From Siphonodentalium dalli (lineage: Eukaryota; Mollusca; Scaphopoda; Gadilida; Siphonodentaliidae): a stretch of 64,000 nucleotides of DNA. The translations under genes were made by a program, and so were the position numbers. The DNA lies in NCBI GenBank assembly GCA_032622095.1, contig CP136061.1, positions 255,203,582 through 255,267,581 of the forward strand, given 5' to 3'. The notes below the pieces were generated by a model. That model was not told the origin of the DNA and did not search any database. It saw only the letters and a program-made list of their open reading frames with translations. The stretch's first letter is position 1. Every line of letters starts with the position of its first letter. This document shows positions 5,281 to 64,000 of this stretch, in pieces.

Positions 5281-5593
5281 TGATATATTTCCATATCTAA
5301 TACATGTGATATACTATGTCCATAACTTCGTTGGAACAGTAATGGGGTTCATATTTTCATTTTTAAGAAACCTAAGAGGGAACAGCACCAGATGTCCTTT
5401 GACGTTTTTGAGCATTGATTTTGCTTTTGGAATATCTGTGTCGACGAGTGGAATCTCTTGTTTATAATGTGTGAGATCAGTGAACGATGCGACGACATCA
5501 TTAGGAATACAATGGAAGACCTAAAAAAGAAAAAATAGAAAATATAATGTATGCTGTGACTGTCCCAGTGGGACTATTGATACCACCGAAGGG

Positions 5594-15982: not shown

Positions 15983-16200
15983 CTGAACAGCGTTCTCCTG
16001 AGCGAGGAGGCAAACTTTCCGGCTTGATGAGGCGTGCCACTGAATAAAACCGGAAATTTATCGTTGTCCTCGATAACGACAGCCATCTCACTGTCCCTCG
16101 TACCCAGCATGCTGCGATCATTGACGTTAGCCGATCCGATAATCACCGTGTCATCATCAACAATCATCAGTTTACTGTGTACATACAACAATTCTGTGAC
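15983..16200 (-). CDS. Pld: Pld exon with the second HKD catalytic motif
   Basis: 72 codons plus two bases, with acceptor TAG at 16201-16203 and donor GTATGG at 15982-15977. It begins [18 protein letters not shown]. The HxKxxxxD motif is complete: His and Lys in HSK, followed by Asp in IVDD. It is followed by [15 protein letters not shown] and [11 protein letters not shown], the canonical HKD2 block of PLD1/PLD2. In this family the His acts as nucleophile or acid/base together with HKD1. The end of the exon, [15 protein letters not shown], matches the AGRFARGLR segment. Key residues are intact, so the gene looks functional. Confidence 0.98.
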
Positions 16201-26301: not shown

Positions 26302-28119
26302 TTAGACACTGATGCCTGAAGATCTGACAAAGTTGTGGACAAGTTTATGTCGAAGAAGTTCTGTATCTGCTGACAGTCCTTCGCATTGCCCGAGGAGAAG
26401 TTTTATTGTTTTGCCGCTGTCATTTATAGAATCCTGGAGTTGCGGACTTTCGGTGAGATCAGAAAACAGTATGTCCCTGTACCCTTGGTTTAAGCTGCAG
26501 TTGAGAATGTAGTGTAGTATAGTTCCTTGTTCACCACAAGAGCATTTCGGTGTGGCTACAAGATTCATTTTGAACATATGCTCATTTAGGAGAGTGTGAC
26601 CTAACTTGAGTCGGTTAACTTTCACCTCCGTGGCTCTGTCAGAGAATGAGAATTTGGTAGGCTTCATACCAGTTATTGGAAACAATTCTTGAGTGTGCTG
26701 TGAAGTTTTACAAAGGTCCCACGAGGTTTGCCACTTACATTTAACAGAGTCCTTTATTGCATTTTTATGTTCTTTGAAAGAGTTCAGATTAGAGTGATCT
26801 GTGAAAGAAGCTTGCGGGACAGTAGAAGCTGCTTCTTTTGCTGCAATGTCTGCCAAATCATTACCCGTAATGTTAGTATGACCTCTCATCCATTTCAGAA
26901 TAACCCTGGATCCCGTTTCATTAAAAATATCATTTATTAGAGAGTTACATGCACGAGTGTGATCTATGTGACCTTTATAATAGTCTCGATTGTATATTGT
27001 CTGTAACGCACTTTTTGAGTCACTGATAACAATGGTTGCTACAGATAGCTTTTTTGTTTTGACAAACGATTTGGCATATATTAGACCCAGTCTTAGTCCA
27101 TAAAGTTCAGCATTGAGACTGTCATCAGAAGATTGAACAGGTTCACTTATGATAACCGGATCGCTGAGTAGGCCACTAGTGTATATAACGGCAGCAGAAC
27201 CACTGTGTCCATTATTTAGCACTGATCCGTCCGTAAAAATAATCAGGTCTTTTCCACCTGTGCTCTGTAGGAATTTACAGTTATCATTACTTTCGATGTC
27301 TAGAGATGCTGCTTGAGATGTATTACTAGAGTTTGGTACAGTTTCAGGAGTTGAGTAGATGGCGTAAGTGCAGAAATCGTCACTTTCAGGGAGATATATT
27401 GGTTCTTTTTCTATAGAGCCGAGTTTGTTACCCAACAGATATTTTCCAAAGGAATAGAGTTTTGCCATGGGAGTGTTTTTGTTGGGAAATAGCATGGCAT
27501 TGTTTAACATTAGTTTTAATTGAGAGTTGTCGGCTTTCCGAAGGATGCGGAGATATTCGGTGGCGGCTATTTCTTTTAGTATAAGAGTTAGAGGTGTAGT
27601 GTTTGTTATCACTTCCATAGAAACAGTACTTGTAGAAGACAGAGCACCAGTCGCTCTGATCAAAGCCGATCTTTGTGCACTTTCAAGTTTGTTTAACTGA
27701 GAATCATTTATTGTGCACCATACTGGGAATCCATAACTTAGGATCGGAATAACAACTGCCTTATATAGTTTTATGGCTTTCTCCGTACTCACTCCGGTAG
27801 GATTTACGAGTTGGCCTATCCTGTTCATAGCACTTGCAGCTTTGCTTATGGTTATACCAACGTGTTCCTTATATGATAAATCTCTGTCTATGGTGATACC
27901 GAGAAGTTTTTTTGAAGGTACTTGTTTCAGATAACCCTTGTCAAGCTGAATTTTGTCGATTCCAATTCCAAATTTTTTTGAGATAAAATGGGTCGATAAA
28001 AACACGGAATATTTATAAATAGCGTTGCGCATACTATGAAACGAAGAGTTTCTGCGCGAACTTATAAATATGAAACGACCGGGTAAGCAACGGATAAATT
28101 GCAAGTTTGTGATCAACAA
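26302..28119 (-). CDS. Non-LTR retrotransposon ORF2 fragment: end of reverse transcriptase plus RNase H
   Basis: The 605-codon open frame is the longest in the window. From about residue 62 it reads like the thumb end of a non-LTR reverse transcriptase (LLGITIDRDLSYKEHV at 72-87, VIPILSYGFPVW at 123-134). A complete RNase H domain follows: TDGS with Asp 297, ELYG with Glu 338, SDSKSAL with Asp 367, and GHTNITGNDLAD with His 414 and Asp 421/424. A Cys/His cluster (CSCGEQGTILHYILNC, about 529-544) lies near the end, as in elements of the I/R1/Jockey-like groups that carry RNase H. The palm with YADD, the endonuclease and ORF1 are missing, so the copy is 5'-truncated. The first ~60 residues probably come from adjoining DNA. 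The frame is intact, which suggests recent insertion. Confidence 0.9.
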   Translation of the reverse strand: MLITNLQFIRCLPGRFIFISSRRNSSFHSMRNAIYKYSVFLSTHFISKKFGIGIDKIQLDKGYLKQVPSKKLLGITIDRDLSYKEHVGITISKAASAMNRIGQLVNPTGVSTEKAIKLYKAVVIPILSYGFPVWCTINDSQLNKLESAQRSALIRATGALSSTSTVSMEVITNTTPLTLILKEIAATEYLRILRKADNSQLKLMLNNAMLFPNKNTPMAKLYSFGKYLLGNKLGSIEKEPIYLPESDDFCTYAIYSTPETVPNSSNTSQAASLDIESNDNCKFLQSTGGKDLIIFTDGSVLNNGHSGSAAVIYTSGLLSDPVIISEPVQSSDDSLNAELYGLRLGLIYAKSFVKTKKLSVATIVISDSKSALQTIYNRDYYKGHIDHTRACNSLINDIFNETGSRVILKWMRGHTNITGNDLADIAAKEAASTVPQASFTDHSNLNSFKEHKNAIKDSVKCKWQTSWDLCKTSQHTQELFPITGMKPTKFSFSDRATEVKVNRLKLGHTLLNEHMFKMNLVATPKCSCGEQGTILHYILNCSLNQGYRDILFSDLTESPQLQDSINDSGKTIKLLLGQCEGLSADTELLRHKLVHNFVRSSGISV

Positions 28120-28191
28120 TAAATATTGAGTTGATAAACTCGCAATAGAGAAATACTTCCTTTAGTTAAAACCACGTCTGATAGGTCCAAG

Positions 28192-32255: not shown

Positions 32256-32261
32256 TTAACT

Positions 32262-32312
32262 TACCGGTTTTCCTTGCAGCTCTGAATGCTTTCTCATTCC
32301 ACACACTATCAC
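32262..32312 (-). pseudogene. Partial duplicate of a Pld exon with an intact donor
   Basis: The 3' part of the exon at 32359-32426 is repeated here with few changes: it reads IVCGMRKHSELQGKP and is followed by the same GTAAGTTAAC donor. The upstream part differs. There is no good acceptor in place, and a TGA falls in frame a few codons before the homologous part. It is a recent local tandem duplication of an exon end plus intron. It may act as a decoy donor or may be inert. Confidence 0.85.
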
Positions 32313-32358
32313 ATAAAATCATAGAGTTACCTGTCCATGATAATATAAGTTAACTTAC

Positions 32359-32426
32359 CGGTTTCCCTTGCAGCTCTGAATGCTTTCTCAGTCCACATAC
32401 TATCACATATTCACTCGGATTCTCAA
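32359..32426 (-). CDS. Pld: Pld exon, GLRKHSELQGKP block
   Basis: 68 bp (two bases plus 22 codons), with acceptor CAG at 32427-32429 and donor GTAAGT at 32358-32353. It reads ENPSEYVIVCGLRKHSEL and ends QGKP, matching the PLD1 segment GLRTHAELEG just before TELIYVHSK. A damaged partial copy of this exon and its donor lies about 95 bp downstream (32262-32312). The next exon is about 16 kb away, past the 12.6-kb composite insertion. Confidence 0.95.
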
Positions 32427-35467: not shown

Positions 35468-35639
35468 TTAAATACATTTTGTGATAGCGAGACAAATCAG
35501 AATTCTATGGAAAACAAGCCTTTGTTTACTTATAAATCTTGTTGCTTTGACTTTCAACGGACATCTGATATACACATGTTTGATATCATCATGATTTGGA
35601 AAGGCTGCCCTCTATGTTTATTGTCCATTTGACCTAATC

Positions 35640-35760
35640 CCAAGCTGTTACAGCATCAGCCCAACCGATATCCCAAGCTGTTACAGCATCAGCCCAACCG
35701 ATATCCCAAGCTGTTACAGCATCAGCCCAACCGATATCCCAAGCTGTTACAGCATTAGCC
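35640..35760 (+). repeat. 33-bp minisatellite, first part
   Basis: Units of CAGCATCAGCCCAACCGATA plus TCCCAAGCTGTTA. The array is cut at 35760 by the hAT-like element and resumes at 36864. Confidence 0.9.
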
Positions 35761-36863: not shown

Positions 36864-37290
36864 CATCAGCCCAACTGATATCCCAAGCTGTTACAGCATC
36901 AACCCAACCGATATCCCAAGCTGTTACAGCATCAACCCAACCGATATCACAAGCTGTTACAGCATCAACCCAACCGATTTCCCAAGCTGTTACAGCATCA
37001 ACCCAACCGATATCCCAAGCTAGCTGTTACAGCATCAACCCAACTGATATCCCAAGCTGTTACAGCATCAACCCAACCGATATCCCAAGTTGTTACAGCA
37101 TCAGCCCAACCGATATCCCAAGCTGTTACAGCATCAGCCCAACCGATATCCCAAGCTGTTACAGCATCAACCCAACCGATATCCCAAGCTGTTACAGCAT
37201 CAACCCAACCGATATCCCAAGCTGTTACAGCATCAACCCAACCAATATCCGAAGCTGTTACAGCATCAACCCAACCGATATCAGAAGCTG
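36864..37290 (+). repeat. 33-bp minisatellite, main part
   Basis: About thirteen units of CAGCATCAACCCAACCGATA plus TCCCAAGCTGTTA (one with a small TAGC duplication at 37021). The 33-bp period keeps long frames open on the plus strand, opposite to Pld. It ends about 30 bp from the donor of the exon at 37323. Confidence 0.9.
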
Positions 37291-37322
37291 TTGAGGACAG
37301 AGAAGATTTGGTCTATACTTAC

Positions 37323-49666: not shown

Positions 49667-49790
49667 CTGAGAATGGGTCATGTAGATTCTGTAGATCTCT
49701 GTAAATAAAGTTGCAGTAATCCTTTCCTATCCAGAGCTTAGATGTCCCAGATAATCCGATGTCGTCAAAGTTTTGTTCGCTCGGAGCCTT
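49667..49790 (-). CDS. Pld: Pld exon, start of second catalytic half (WIGKDYCNF)
   Basis: 41 codons plus one base, with acceptor CAG at 49791-49793 and donor GTAAGA at 49666-49661. The end of the exon reads KLWIGKDYCNFIYRDL and then HDPFS, matching the conserved block that opens the C-terminal catalytic half of PLD1 (a WHGKDYCNF-like motif). The first 18 residues are variable and belong to the end of the loop. Phase 0 at the start matches the loop exon directly. The single G at the end completes the Asp codon of DFIDR in the next exon. Confidence 0.92.
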
Positions 49791-62070: not shown

Positions 62071-62188
62071 CTCCTCTGAGGAATGATAGAACGTCGAAAG
62101 TCCGACATGTACTGTAGGATCATCGATATTCTCAGGTACAGAAGGATGGCTTTCATTCTGTGTTATGACTGAACCAAGGTCTGTTAGC
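62071..62188 (-). CDS. Pld: Pld exon directly after HKD1 (LTDLGS exon)
   Basis: The 3' splice site is a pyrimidine-rich stretch ending CAG at 62189-62191. The exon reads LTDLGSVITQNESHPS, matching the LTDVGS segment that follows the first HKD motif in animal PLD1. It begins with one base that completes a codon (probably Arg) from the previous exon. The 5' splice site is less certain. GT at 62070-62069 gives 39 codons ending HSSEE. GT at 62112-62111 or at 62139-62138 would also keep phase 0 and give a shorter exon. I prefer the longest form because its donor has the best exon-side and +5/+6 match. The acceptor and first 48 bases of this exon are also the source of the 98-bp tandem array immediately upstream in the gene. 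Confidence 0.8.
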
Positions 62189-63976
62189 CTGAAATACAGA
62201 TGTAGATACTATGATATTAACGCATGTACATGTATAGAAGAATGGCTTTCATTCTGTGTTATGACTGAACCAAGGTCTGTTAGCCTGAAATACAGATGTA
62301 GATACTATGAGCTATTAACACATGTACATGTATAGAAGGATGGCTTTCATTCTGTGTTATGACTGAACCAAGGTCTGTTAGCCTGAAATACAGATGTAGA
62401 TACTATGAGCTATTAACACATGTACATGTATAGAAGAATGGCTTTCATTCTGTGTTATGACTGAACCAAGGTCTGTTAGCCTGAAATACAGATGTAGATA
62501 CTATGAGCTATTAACACATGTACATGTATAGAAGGATGGCTTTCATTCTGTGTTATGACTGAACCAAGGTCTGTTAGCCTGAAATACAGATGTAGATACT
62601 ATGAGCTATTAACACATGTACATGTATAGAAGAATGGCTTTCATTCTGTGTTATGACTGAACCAAGGTCTGTTAGCCTGAAATACAGATGTAGATACTAT
62701 GAGATATTAACACATGTACATGTATAGAAGGATGGCTTTCATTCTGCGTTACGACTGAACCAAGGTCTGTTAGCCTGAAATACAGATGTAGATACTATGA
62801 TATTAACACATGTACATGTATAGAAGGATGGCTTTCATTCTGCGTTACGACTGAACCAAGGTCTGTTAGCCTGAAATACAGATGTAGATACTATGATATT
62901 AACGCATGTACATGTATAGAAGAATGGCTTTCATTCTGCGTTACGACTGAACCAAGGTCTGTTAGCCTGAAATACAGATGTAGATACTATGAGATATTAA
63001 CACATGTACATGTATAGAAGGATGGCTTTCATTCTGCGTTACGACTGAACCAAGGTCTGTTAGCCTGAAATACAGATGTAGATACTATGAGATATTAACA
63101 CATGTACATGTATAGAAGGATGGCTTTCATTCTGCGTTACGACTGAACCAAGGTCTGTTAGCCTGAAATACAGATGTAGATACTATGAGATATTAACACA
63201 TGTACATGTATAGAAGGATGGCTTTCATTCTGCGTTACGACTGAACCAAGGTCTGTTAGCCTGAAATACAGATGTAGATACTATGAGATATTAACACATG
63301 TACATGTATAGAAGGATGGCTTTCATTCTGCGTTACGACTGAACCAAGGTCTGTTAGCCTGAAATACAGATGTAGATACTATGAGCTATTAACACATGTA
63401 CATGTATAGAAGGATGGCTTTCATTCTGTGTTATGACTGAACCAAGGTCTGTTAGCCTGAAATACAGATGTAGATACTATGAGATATTAACACATGTACA
63501 TGTATAGAAGGATGGCTTTCATTCTGCGTTACGACTGAACCAAGGTCTGTTAGCCTGAAATACAGATGTAGATACTATGAGCTATTAACACATGTACATG
63601 TATAGAAGGATGGCTTTCATTCTGCGTTACGACTGAACCAAGGTCTGTTAGCCTGAAATACAGATGTAGATACTATGAGATATTAACACATGTACATGTA
63701 TAGAAGGATGGCTTTCATTCTGTGTTACGACTGAACCAAGGTCTGTTAGCCTGAAATACAGATGTAGATACTATGAGATATTAACACATGTACATGTATA
63801 GAAGGATGGCTTTCATTCTGCGTTACGACTGAACCAAGGTCTGTTAGCCTGAAATACAGATGTAGATACTATGAGATATTAACACATGTACATGTATAGA
63901 AGGATGGCTTTCATTCTGTGTTACGACTGAACCAAGGTCTGTTAGCCTGAAATACAGATGTAGATACTATGAGATA
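62130..63976 (-). repeat. 98-bp tandem array, 19 copies of a Pld intron/exon boundary
   Basis: Each unit (minus strand) holds the branch/pyrimidine region CTACATCTGTATTTCAG, the first 48 bases of the LTDLGS exon, and a spacer ACATGTACATGTGTTAATA. GACTGAACCAAGGTCTGTTA occurs 19 times from about 62167 to 63935. The copy next to 62188 is the genuine exon. Most units are 98 bp; a few lack two or three bases. Variants TGTTATG / CGTTACG and AGAATGG / AGGATGG mark subgroups. Confidence 0.95.
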
Positions 63977-63980
63977 TTAA

Positions 63981-64000
63981 CCCTTTACCCAACAAACCGG
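63981..64000. mobile_element. Left end of a piggyBac-like MITE, family A
   Basis: TTAA at 63977-63980 and CCCTTTACCCAACAAACCGG run off the window. It abuts the 98-bp array. Confidence 0.85.

Follow-up and report, generated by a model that had tools for sequence, protein, structure and literature searches.

The stretch considered here is a window of 64,000 nucleotides from the scaphopod mollusc Siphonodentalium dalli (assembly GCA_032622095.1, contig CP136061.1, positions 255,203,582 to 255,267,581 of the forward strand). It carries exons of a phospholipase D gene, hereafter Pld. On the minus strand we traced the gene from 72632, a position in L001 that lies past the window, to 5314. Across the boundary between one Pld intron and exon E6, the exon that follows the one with the first HKD motif (HKD1), lies a tandem array in which the 3' splice site (acceptor) is repeated together with the exon start. 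In window positions, the features at the centre of the analysis are as follows.

62136 to 63981, minus strand: tandem array of about 19 units of 98 bp, delimited by Tandem Repeats Finder (TRF)
62071 to 62188, minus strand: coding exon E6, 118 nt, (K)LTDLGSVITQNESHPSVPENIDDPTVHVGLSTFYHSSEE, with presumed donor GAG/GTCCGT, assigned by homology and phase
62189 to 62205, minus strand: exon-proximal acceptor T19, CTACATCTGTATTTCAG, the sole copy that opens into the complete exon
62285 to 63963 (span), minus strand: 18 decoy acceptors, T18 to T1, identical over the 17-mer and equal to T19 in acceptor score

Sequence comparison identifies the host gene as an animal phospholipase D of the PLD1/2 type. 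At each of the two HKD sites the score of the PLDc motif (PF00614) exceeds the Pfam cut-off, and a search of the whole genome at E <= 0.001 gave three matches, two within Pld and the third on C7, with no second gene of PLD1/2 type seen at this threshold. Among solved structures, the closest relatives of the joined E2-E7 translation are 6ohr (E 6.7e-68) and 6ohm (E 2.4e-60), that is PLD1/PLD2, the next being 7v53 (E 4.2e-10). Exon finding was guided by a human PLD1 sequence, and the gene was read upstream only to residues matching human PLD1 at about 299; the joined coding sequence covers E2-E7, the small exon E8b and the 5' part of the gene lying outside it. Every recognised exon holds a PLD-like stretch open in the conserved frame.

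The unit of the array is composed of the 3' end of the intron, the acceptor, the first 49 nt of the exon and a short junction, and on the window TRF reports a period of 98, 18.9 copies and 98% matches. The acceptor 17-mer CTACATCTGTATTTCAG occurs 19 times across the 2.2-Gb genome, every time within the array and on the minus strand, while the reversed pattern had no match in the whole genome. The first-pass annotation had described 19 tandem copies of a Pld acceptor and exon start, and this holds. The unit length of 98 bp that it gave applies to 15 of the 18 intervals between neighbouring acceptors; the other three measure 96 bp. We number the copies in transcription order, from T1 (63946, the earliest) to T19 (62188). 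A DNA search of the genome with the 98-nt unit, which may overlook some copies, returned 20 matches, namely the 19 in the array and an adjoining remnant of 32 nt, and the unit is thus local sequence rather than a dispersed element. By its sequence organisation the array can be classed as a minisatellite-like tandem repeat across an intron-exon boundary of its host gene. Its copy number comes from one assembly, and the true number could differ.

The HKD1 exon ends ...CACAA/GTAAGT at 65489 and the array exon starts G/CTAACA, and as the joined codon is AAG (K), giving K-LTDLGS, the phase is kept from the HKD1 exon to E6. This agrees with the earlier claim that each unit carries the acceptor and 16 codons of the exon following HKD1. 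The alignment with PLD1 is collinear over the junction (ELHK-LTDLGS versus NEHR-LTDVGS) and places the conserved LTD(L/V)GS stretch of the enzyme in E6. An LTDLGS exon elsewhere in the gene would have told against this assignment, and in 73.8 kb, on both strands, the pattern L[TSA]D[LVIMA][GA]S had no match outside the 19 array copies. When all 19 copies are read, the one at 62188 alone continues into the rest of the exon, as had been proposed, and it alone retains the whole exon with a donor directly behind. All 18 decoys run into an early stop, again as anticipated. The particular stop predicted for every one of them, TAA in TCA GGC TAA, is found in 15, after 34 residues; the three decoys that precede the 96-bp intervals reach TAG after 25 residues. 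All 19 acceptors score equally, at the 48th percentile of 156 acceptors sampled in other genes, and so position rather than strength must decide among them. The presumed donor of E6 is weak, at the 15th percentile of sampled donors.

The first-pass annotation treated this array as if it were unique, which proved wrong, for a second acceptor array lies in the same gene and a third in an SNF2 gene. The second is found in L001:5750-6279 (69650-70179 on the scale of the window), where 41-bp units of 100% identity carry 13 acceptors, each copied together with the first part of the exon that matches PLD1 355-382. Four of its 12 decoys are open in frame and eight reach stops. GTTTGT follows directly after each acceptor, the unit reading ...CACAG/GTTTGT. 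Duplicated donors occur at three further Pld exons. At E2 the copy spans 36 bp and its second copy has lost the GT; at E4 a 99-bp repeat, open in frame, is present in three copies; and at E12 the 3' part of the exon is copied with its donor, as listed here with the other exons.

49667 to 49790, minus strand: coding exon E7, the next recognised after E6, KAPSEQNFDD...WIGKDYCNF, in phase 0 with E6
32359 to 32426, minus strand: coding exon E12, (V)ENPSEYVIVCGLRKHSELQGKP
32259 to 32315, minus strand: copy of the 3' part of E12 with donor CCG/GTAAGT, 94 bp downstream, read-through into which leads to a stop
15983 to 16200, minus strand: exon with the second HKD motif, from the Pfam PLDc motif
5314 to 5520, minus strand: last Pld coding exon, ending ...VPTKLWT stop

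At an 85% identity test, a nearby copy was present at 4 of 29 Pld edges (a count that starts at E1 and omits the small exon E8b), versus a copy within 500 bp for 151 of 1407 intron windows, and we therefore discard the idea of a clear excess of copied edges in Pld. The E12 donor, at 22/26 by hand count, falls slightly under this test. The introns of the gene also contain, on the minus strand at 26302-28161, an open frame of 619 aa that includes an RNase H domain and probably stems from a retroelement, and, near E10, two blocks of a 33-bp repeat (35637-35760 and 36864-37292, with 3.8 and 12.9 copies).

The 98-bp array has a history that can be partly read from its units and from its upstream flank, where two further features are found.

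63981 to 64372 (63981 to 64000 in the window), no strand assigned: 392-bp element with TTAA on each side and CCCTTTACCCAACA inverted ends, interrupting a former array unit
64378 to 64409, beyond the window: remnant partial unit T0, 32 nt, parted from the array by the 392-bp insert

The end motif formed by TTAA and CCCTTTACCCAACA was found 35 times, of which 23 fall in the 73.8 kb surrounding Pld and 12 in loci of the survey described below, and the insert thus belongs to a repeated element of mobile type, whose TTAA target sites we take to be reminiscent of piggyBac. Since the insertion split an older unit, the array predates it. Unit comparison shows the GTCATAACACAG variant in T14-T19 plus T6, the GTCGTAACG variant in 10 of the 13 copies T1-T13 and the GTCGTAACACAG variant in T1 and T3. 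The coding copy, T19, has its ATAACA form in common with T14-T18 and also T6. This block-wise distribution is suggestive, but no proof, of exchange among units, the coding copy included; exchange into the latter would switch Val and Ile at one codon.

To set these arrays in context we surveyed exon edges in unrelated genes of the same genome. The survey comprises 160 conserved exons (40 of 89 dynein, 30 of 53 CCT, 10 of 85 myosin, 60 of 123 kinesin and 20 of 73 SNF2 matches), chosen without a fixed rule, mostly from high in each list and with many near-identical paralogues dropped. Edges were assigned by a script using splice-site weights, and some are probably wrong; the acceptors of L056 and L057 were set by hand. 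L161, selected for its repeated matches, was excluded from the counts, and of the remaining 159 exons 3 acceptors and 8 donors (including the duplicated donor of L091) were left unassigned, giving 156 acceptors and 151 donors. Exons of the same gene are not independent, and a few survey loci overlap. Arrays of this kind are not a product of chance, given that dinucleotide-shuffled versions of the 160 loci yield no TRF row with a period of at least 20, versus 78 in the real loci. In the course of the survey we also observed on C4, especially at about 274-275 Mb, many myosin-head matches that share their query ranges (about 285-379 and 376-435) and differ little in score, a pattern that a recent expansion of a myosin gene cluster could leave.

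Exon edges with local copies are no rarity in this genome. Among the first 80 survey exons a local copy accompanies 6 of 154 edges. Inspection by eye recognised duplicated edges at L003, L045, L056, L057, L059, L062, L066, L069 and L071, with four of 13 flagged loci (L008, L010, L030 and L032) set aside as matches to scattered repeats, and, in the later set, at L091, L108, L111, L126, L128, L134, L137 and L141, with two of 11 flagged loci (L099 and L102) set aside as single weak matches. In some of these loci, for example L071 and L057, the copied splice site is lost or partly kept. Donor arrays are found in kinesin and CCT genes (L128, L126 and L059). In two of them the TRF units start at the donor, with 15.6 copies of 34 bp in L128 and 14.5 of 30 bp in L126, and L059 has 39-bp units. 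About half of the donor-array periods are multiples of three, on a hand reading of few arrays. The SNF2-family exon L161 (C6:220293635-220295008) has an acceptor array of 127-bp units with five acceptors, the copied exon start extending to what we take to be the DEMGLGKT motif.

In the counts, TRF arrays with a period of at least 20 cover 10 of 151 donors, none of 156 acceptors and 162 of 2756 intron control points. By side, the controls fall in arrays at 100 of 1354 points on the donor side, a figure inflated by arrays that start at donors, and at 62 of 1402 on the acceptor side. The absence at acceptors has p 0.0009 versus their own control and p 0.0007 (Fisher) versus donors; TRF overlooked a 55-bp duplication, perfect in sequence, that lies at the L045 acceptor, and an 8-base margin excluded the acceptor of L126, which sits where a TRF row (331-507) ends. 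A looser 24-mer test at three thresholds counted 8, 8 and 9 donors among the 151 and 2, 3 and 4 acceptors among the 156 (p 0.06, 0.13 and 0.16), the intron controls standing at 84, 93 and 117 of 1504 on the donor side and 30, 39 and 50 of 1560 on the acceptor side. In this test the 156 acceptors show no deficit versus their own intron control, and the donors likewise stay near theirs. By hand, arrays of at least three copies number seven at donors versus none at acceptors (p 0.006), and duplicated edges 13 versus four (p 0.049). Together these counts give a weak indication that acceptor arrays are fewer than donor arrays in this genome. Because 10 of 151 matches the intron control, donors are neither spared by arrays nor targeted for them. 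The same comparison led us to reject the notion that exon edges attract tandem duplication, which is also contradicted by distance, with 3 of 138 and 5 of 148 edge windows versus 169 of 3899 deep-intron windows.

Arrays of this kind are already known, and the Pld array is probably a case of the type called mirages in amphioxus. The amphioxus papers (PMC3087553, PMC3902484) describe boundary minisatellites in Adh3, the globins BflGb6/BflGb9, TnC and PGBD5, whose units measure 10-160 bp. The length is reported to differ from one haplotype to another and the units to be homogenised; splice signals are kept in many units, and RT-PCR suggested that regular splicing is undisturbed. The likeness lies in tandem units across an intron-exon boundary, and the difference in copy number, 19 in Pld versus 6 and 3 units in two haplotypes of BflGb6. 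The present genome, 2.2 Gb in 9 contigs, also differs in size from that of amphioxus, which is about 0.5 Gb. In human, PMC2630376 reports for CBS 844ins68 a duplicated intron 7/exon 8 junction of which the more distal copy is strongly favoured; it words the case as "donor", while the work it cites is titled 3' splice site selection. That allele has one extra 68-bp copy and is polymorphic in people, versus 18 extra copies in Pld. According to the same paper, the 31-bp CBS variable number tandem repeat (VNTR) c.1444_1467+7(16_21) exists in 16-21 copies (PMC2630376). By its coordinates it resembles our case in reaching across a boundary, from the end of an exon into the intron as far as base 7, but it copies a donor where the Pld array copies an acceptor, and is in this sense nearer to L128, L126 and L059. 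In recent human paralogues, boundary tandem repeats of minisatellite size can alter splicing and form novel introns (PMC2812944); they change the structure of recently duplicated genes, whereas in Pld an existing boundary is multiplied within an existing intron. Novel intron positions in Drosophila are attributed, in PMC2891723, to intron gain via tandem duplication in exons. There too local duplications with splice signals alter the sites on offer, although no new intron position is seen in Pld. In searches on boundary repeats within open-licence papers, boundary minisatellites as a recurrent trait of a lineage were found for amphioxus and, in another form, for recent human paralogues.

We put forward that the Pld array is most probably a locally grown minisatellite of the mirage type, tolerated because the exon-proximal acceptor is the one used. 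A short stretch over the intron-exon boundary would have been duplicated in tandem and the duplicate then expanded and homogenised through slippage or unequal exchange, additional copies accumulating on the intron side. Among acceptors that compete for one donor, exon definition prefers the one giving the shortest exon, and for this reason the use of 62188 should be preferred; most transcripts would then join the HKD1 exon (65489) to that acceptor. Any mRNA spliced to a decoy, with its early stop, would presumably be degraded, some leaky decoy use being a likely cost. The array would thus mainly be a tolerated by-product of a genome rich in local tandem duplications, and as copied exon edges are not rare there, Pld probably works via splicing to the full-exon copy. 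Of the two options left by the first-pass annotation, tuning of Pld by copy number or silence by preference for the last acceptor, the second would appear to fit best, because the exon is conserved, exon edges are copied in unrelated genes and splicing in amphioxus was reported as undisturbed. Human CBS 844ins68, with its strong splicing at the more distal copy, is a further precedent for the main reading. Several points weigh on the other side. That none of the 156 sampled acceptors lies in a TRF array hints that acceptor arrays are harmful, in which case two in one gene would be unexpected if they were purely neutral; this is tempered by the looser test, where acceptors are not below their own control. 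The weak donor of E6 speaks somewhat against strong exon definition, and the decoys, being transcribed earlier, could capture the HKD1 donor. Human genes, moreover, can gain alternative splicing from exon-intron boundary repeats (PMC2812944).

The alternatives turn largely on the same observations. If the decoys served regulatory poison splicing, some of the transcripts would be lost to decay through them, with the amount of full-length Pld mRNA set by copy number or by a repeat-binding factor. An early stop from every decoy and a 17-mer intact in all 18 speak for this, as does the co-occurrence of two separate acceptor arrays in Pld when the survey has none by TRF. However, the four decoys of the 41-bp array that stay open in frame indicate that stops are no rule, and donor arrays in unrelated genes occur at about intron background, so that no special purpose is needed; we regard this reading as improbable. 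Slightly less likely again in our estimation is a genome-wide variant in which several per cent of donors sit in donor arrays while acceptors are kept nearly array-free since decoys are transcribed first, Pld being an exception whose array length sets its output by diversion. Its odds, already low, are reduced a little further because acceptors do not fall below their own control in the 24-mer test. A quite different and very unlikely possibility is removal of at least the 41-bp array by recursive splicing, in which the upstream exon (...GATG) and a decoy would rebuild the donor ATG/GTTTGT for resplicing to the next copy. Among sampled donors the rebuilt site ranks at the 32nd percentile; GTTTGT itself is predicted as the donor of Pld E4 and of 5 of the 151 exons sampled. 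Yet the scheme is inapplicable to the 98-bp array, where the junction rebuilt from the HKD1 exon and a decoy scores -5.4, far below real donors.

Two further explanations seem to us slightly more doubtful still. The gene might be a decaying pseudogene in which arrays are permitted since nothing depends on it. Such a state would accord with the two acceptor arrays and three duplicated donors found together in Pld, with the very weak donors presumed for certain exons (E8 and E3 among them), and with a coding sequence that is incomplete past E7 and in which E8 was out of frame when joined, before exon ends were corrected. It is opposed by the open, conserved frame of the recognised exons, by HKD motifs that both pass the Pfam cut-off and by the lack of a second PLD1/2-type gene in the genome search. 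Equally remote is an assembly artefact that would make the existence or the length of the array wrong. Tandem arrays are known to cause assembly error, but the units here show block variants and two lengths, an inserted element separates a further partial unit, and similar arrays of many periods occur in unrelated genes.

As far as the literature was searched, three things are new: an acceptor array of 19 copies whose decoys are all intact, the presence of two acceptor arrays in a single gene, and a count, from the survey of this genome, of exon edges that fall in arrays. The finding extends mirage-like boundary arrays to another large animal genome. It also makes Pld a natural test of choice among identical sites, with 19 acceptors at one exon and 13 at another, where the spliceosome may turn to the copy transcribed earliest, to that nearest the exon, or to a mixture; donor arrays elsewhere, reaching about 15 units in L128, offer the same test for donors. 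If multi-copy acceptor arrays are truly rarer than donor arrays, this would constitute evidence of selection bearing on splice-site commitment.
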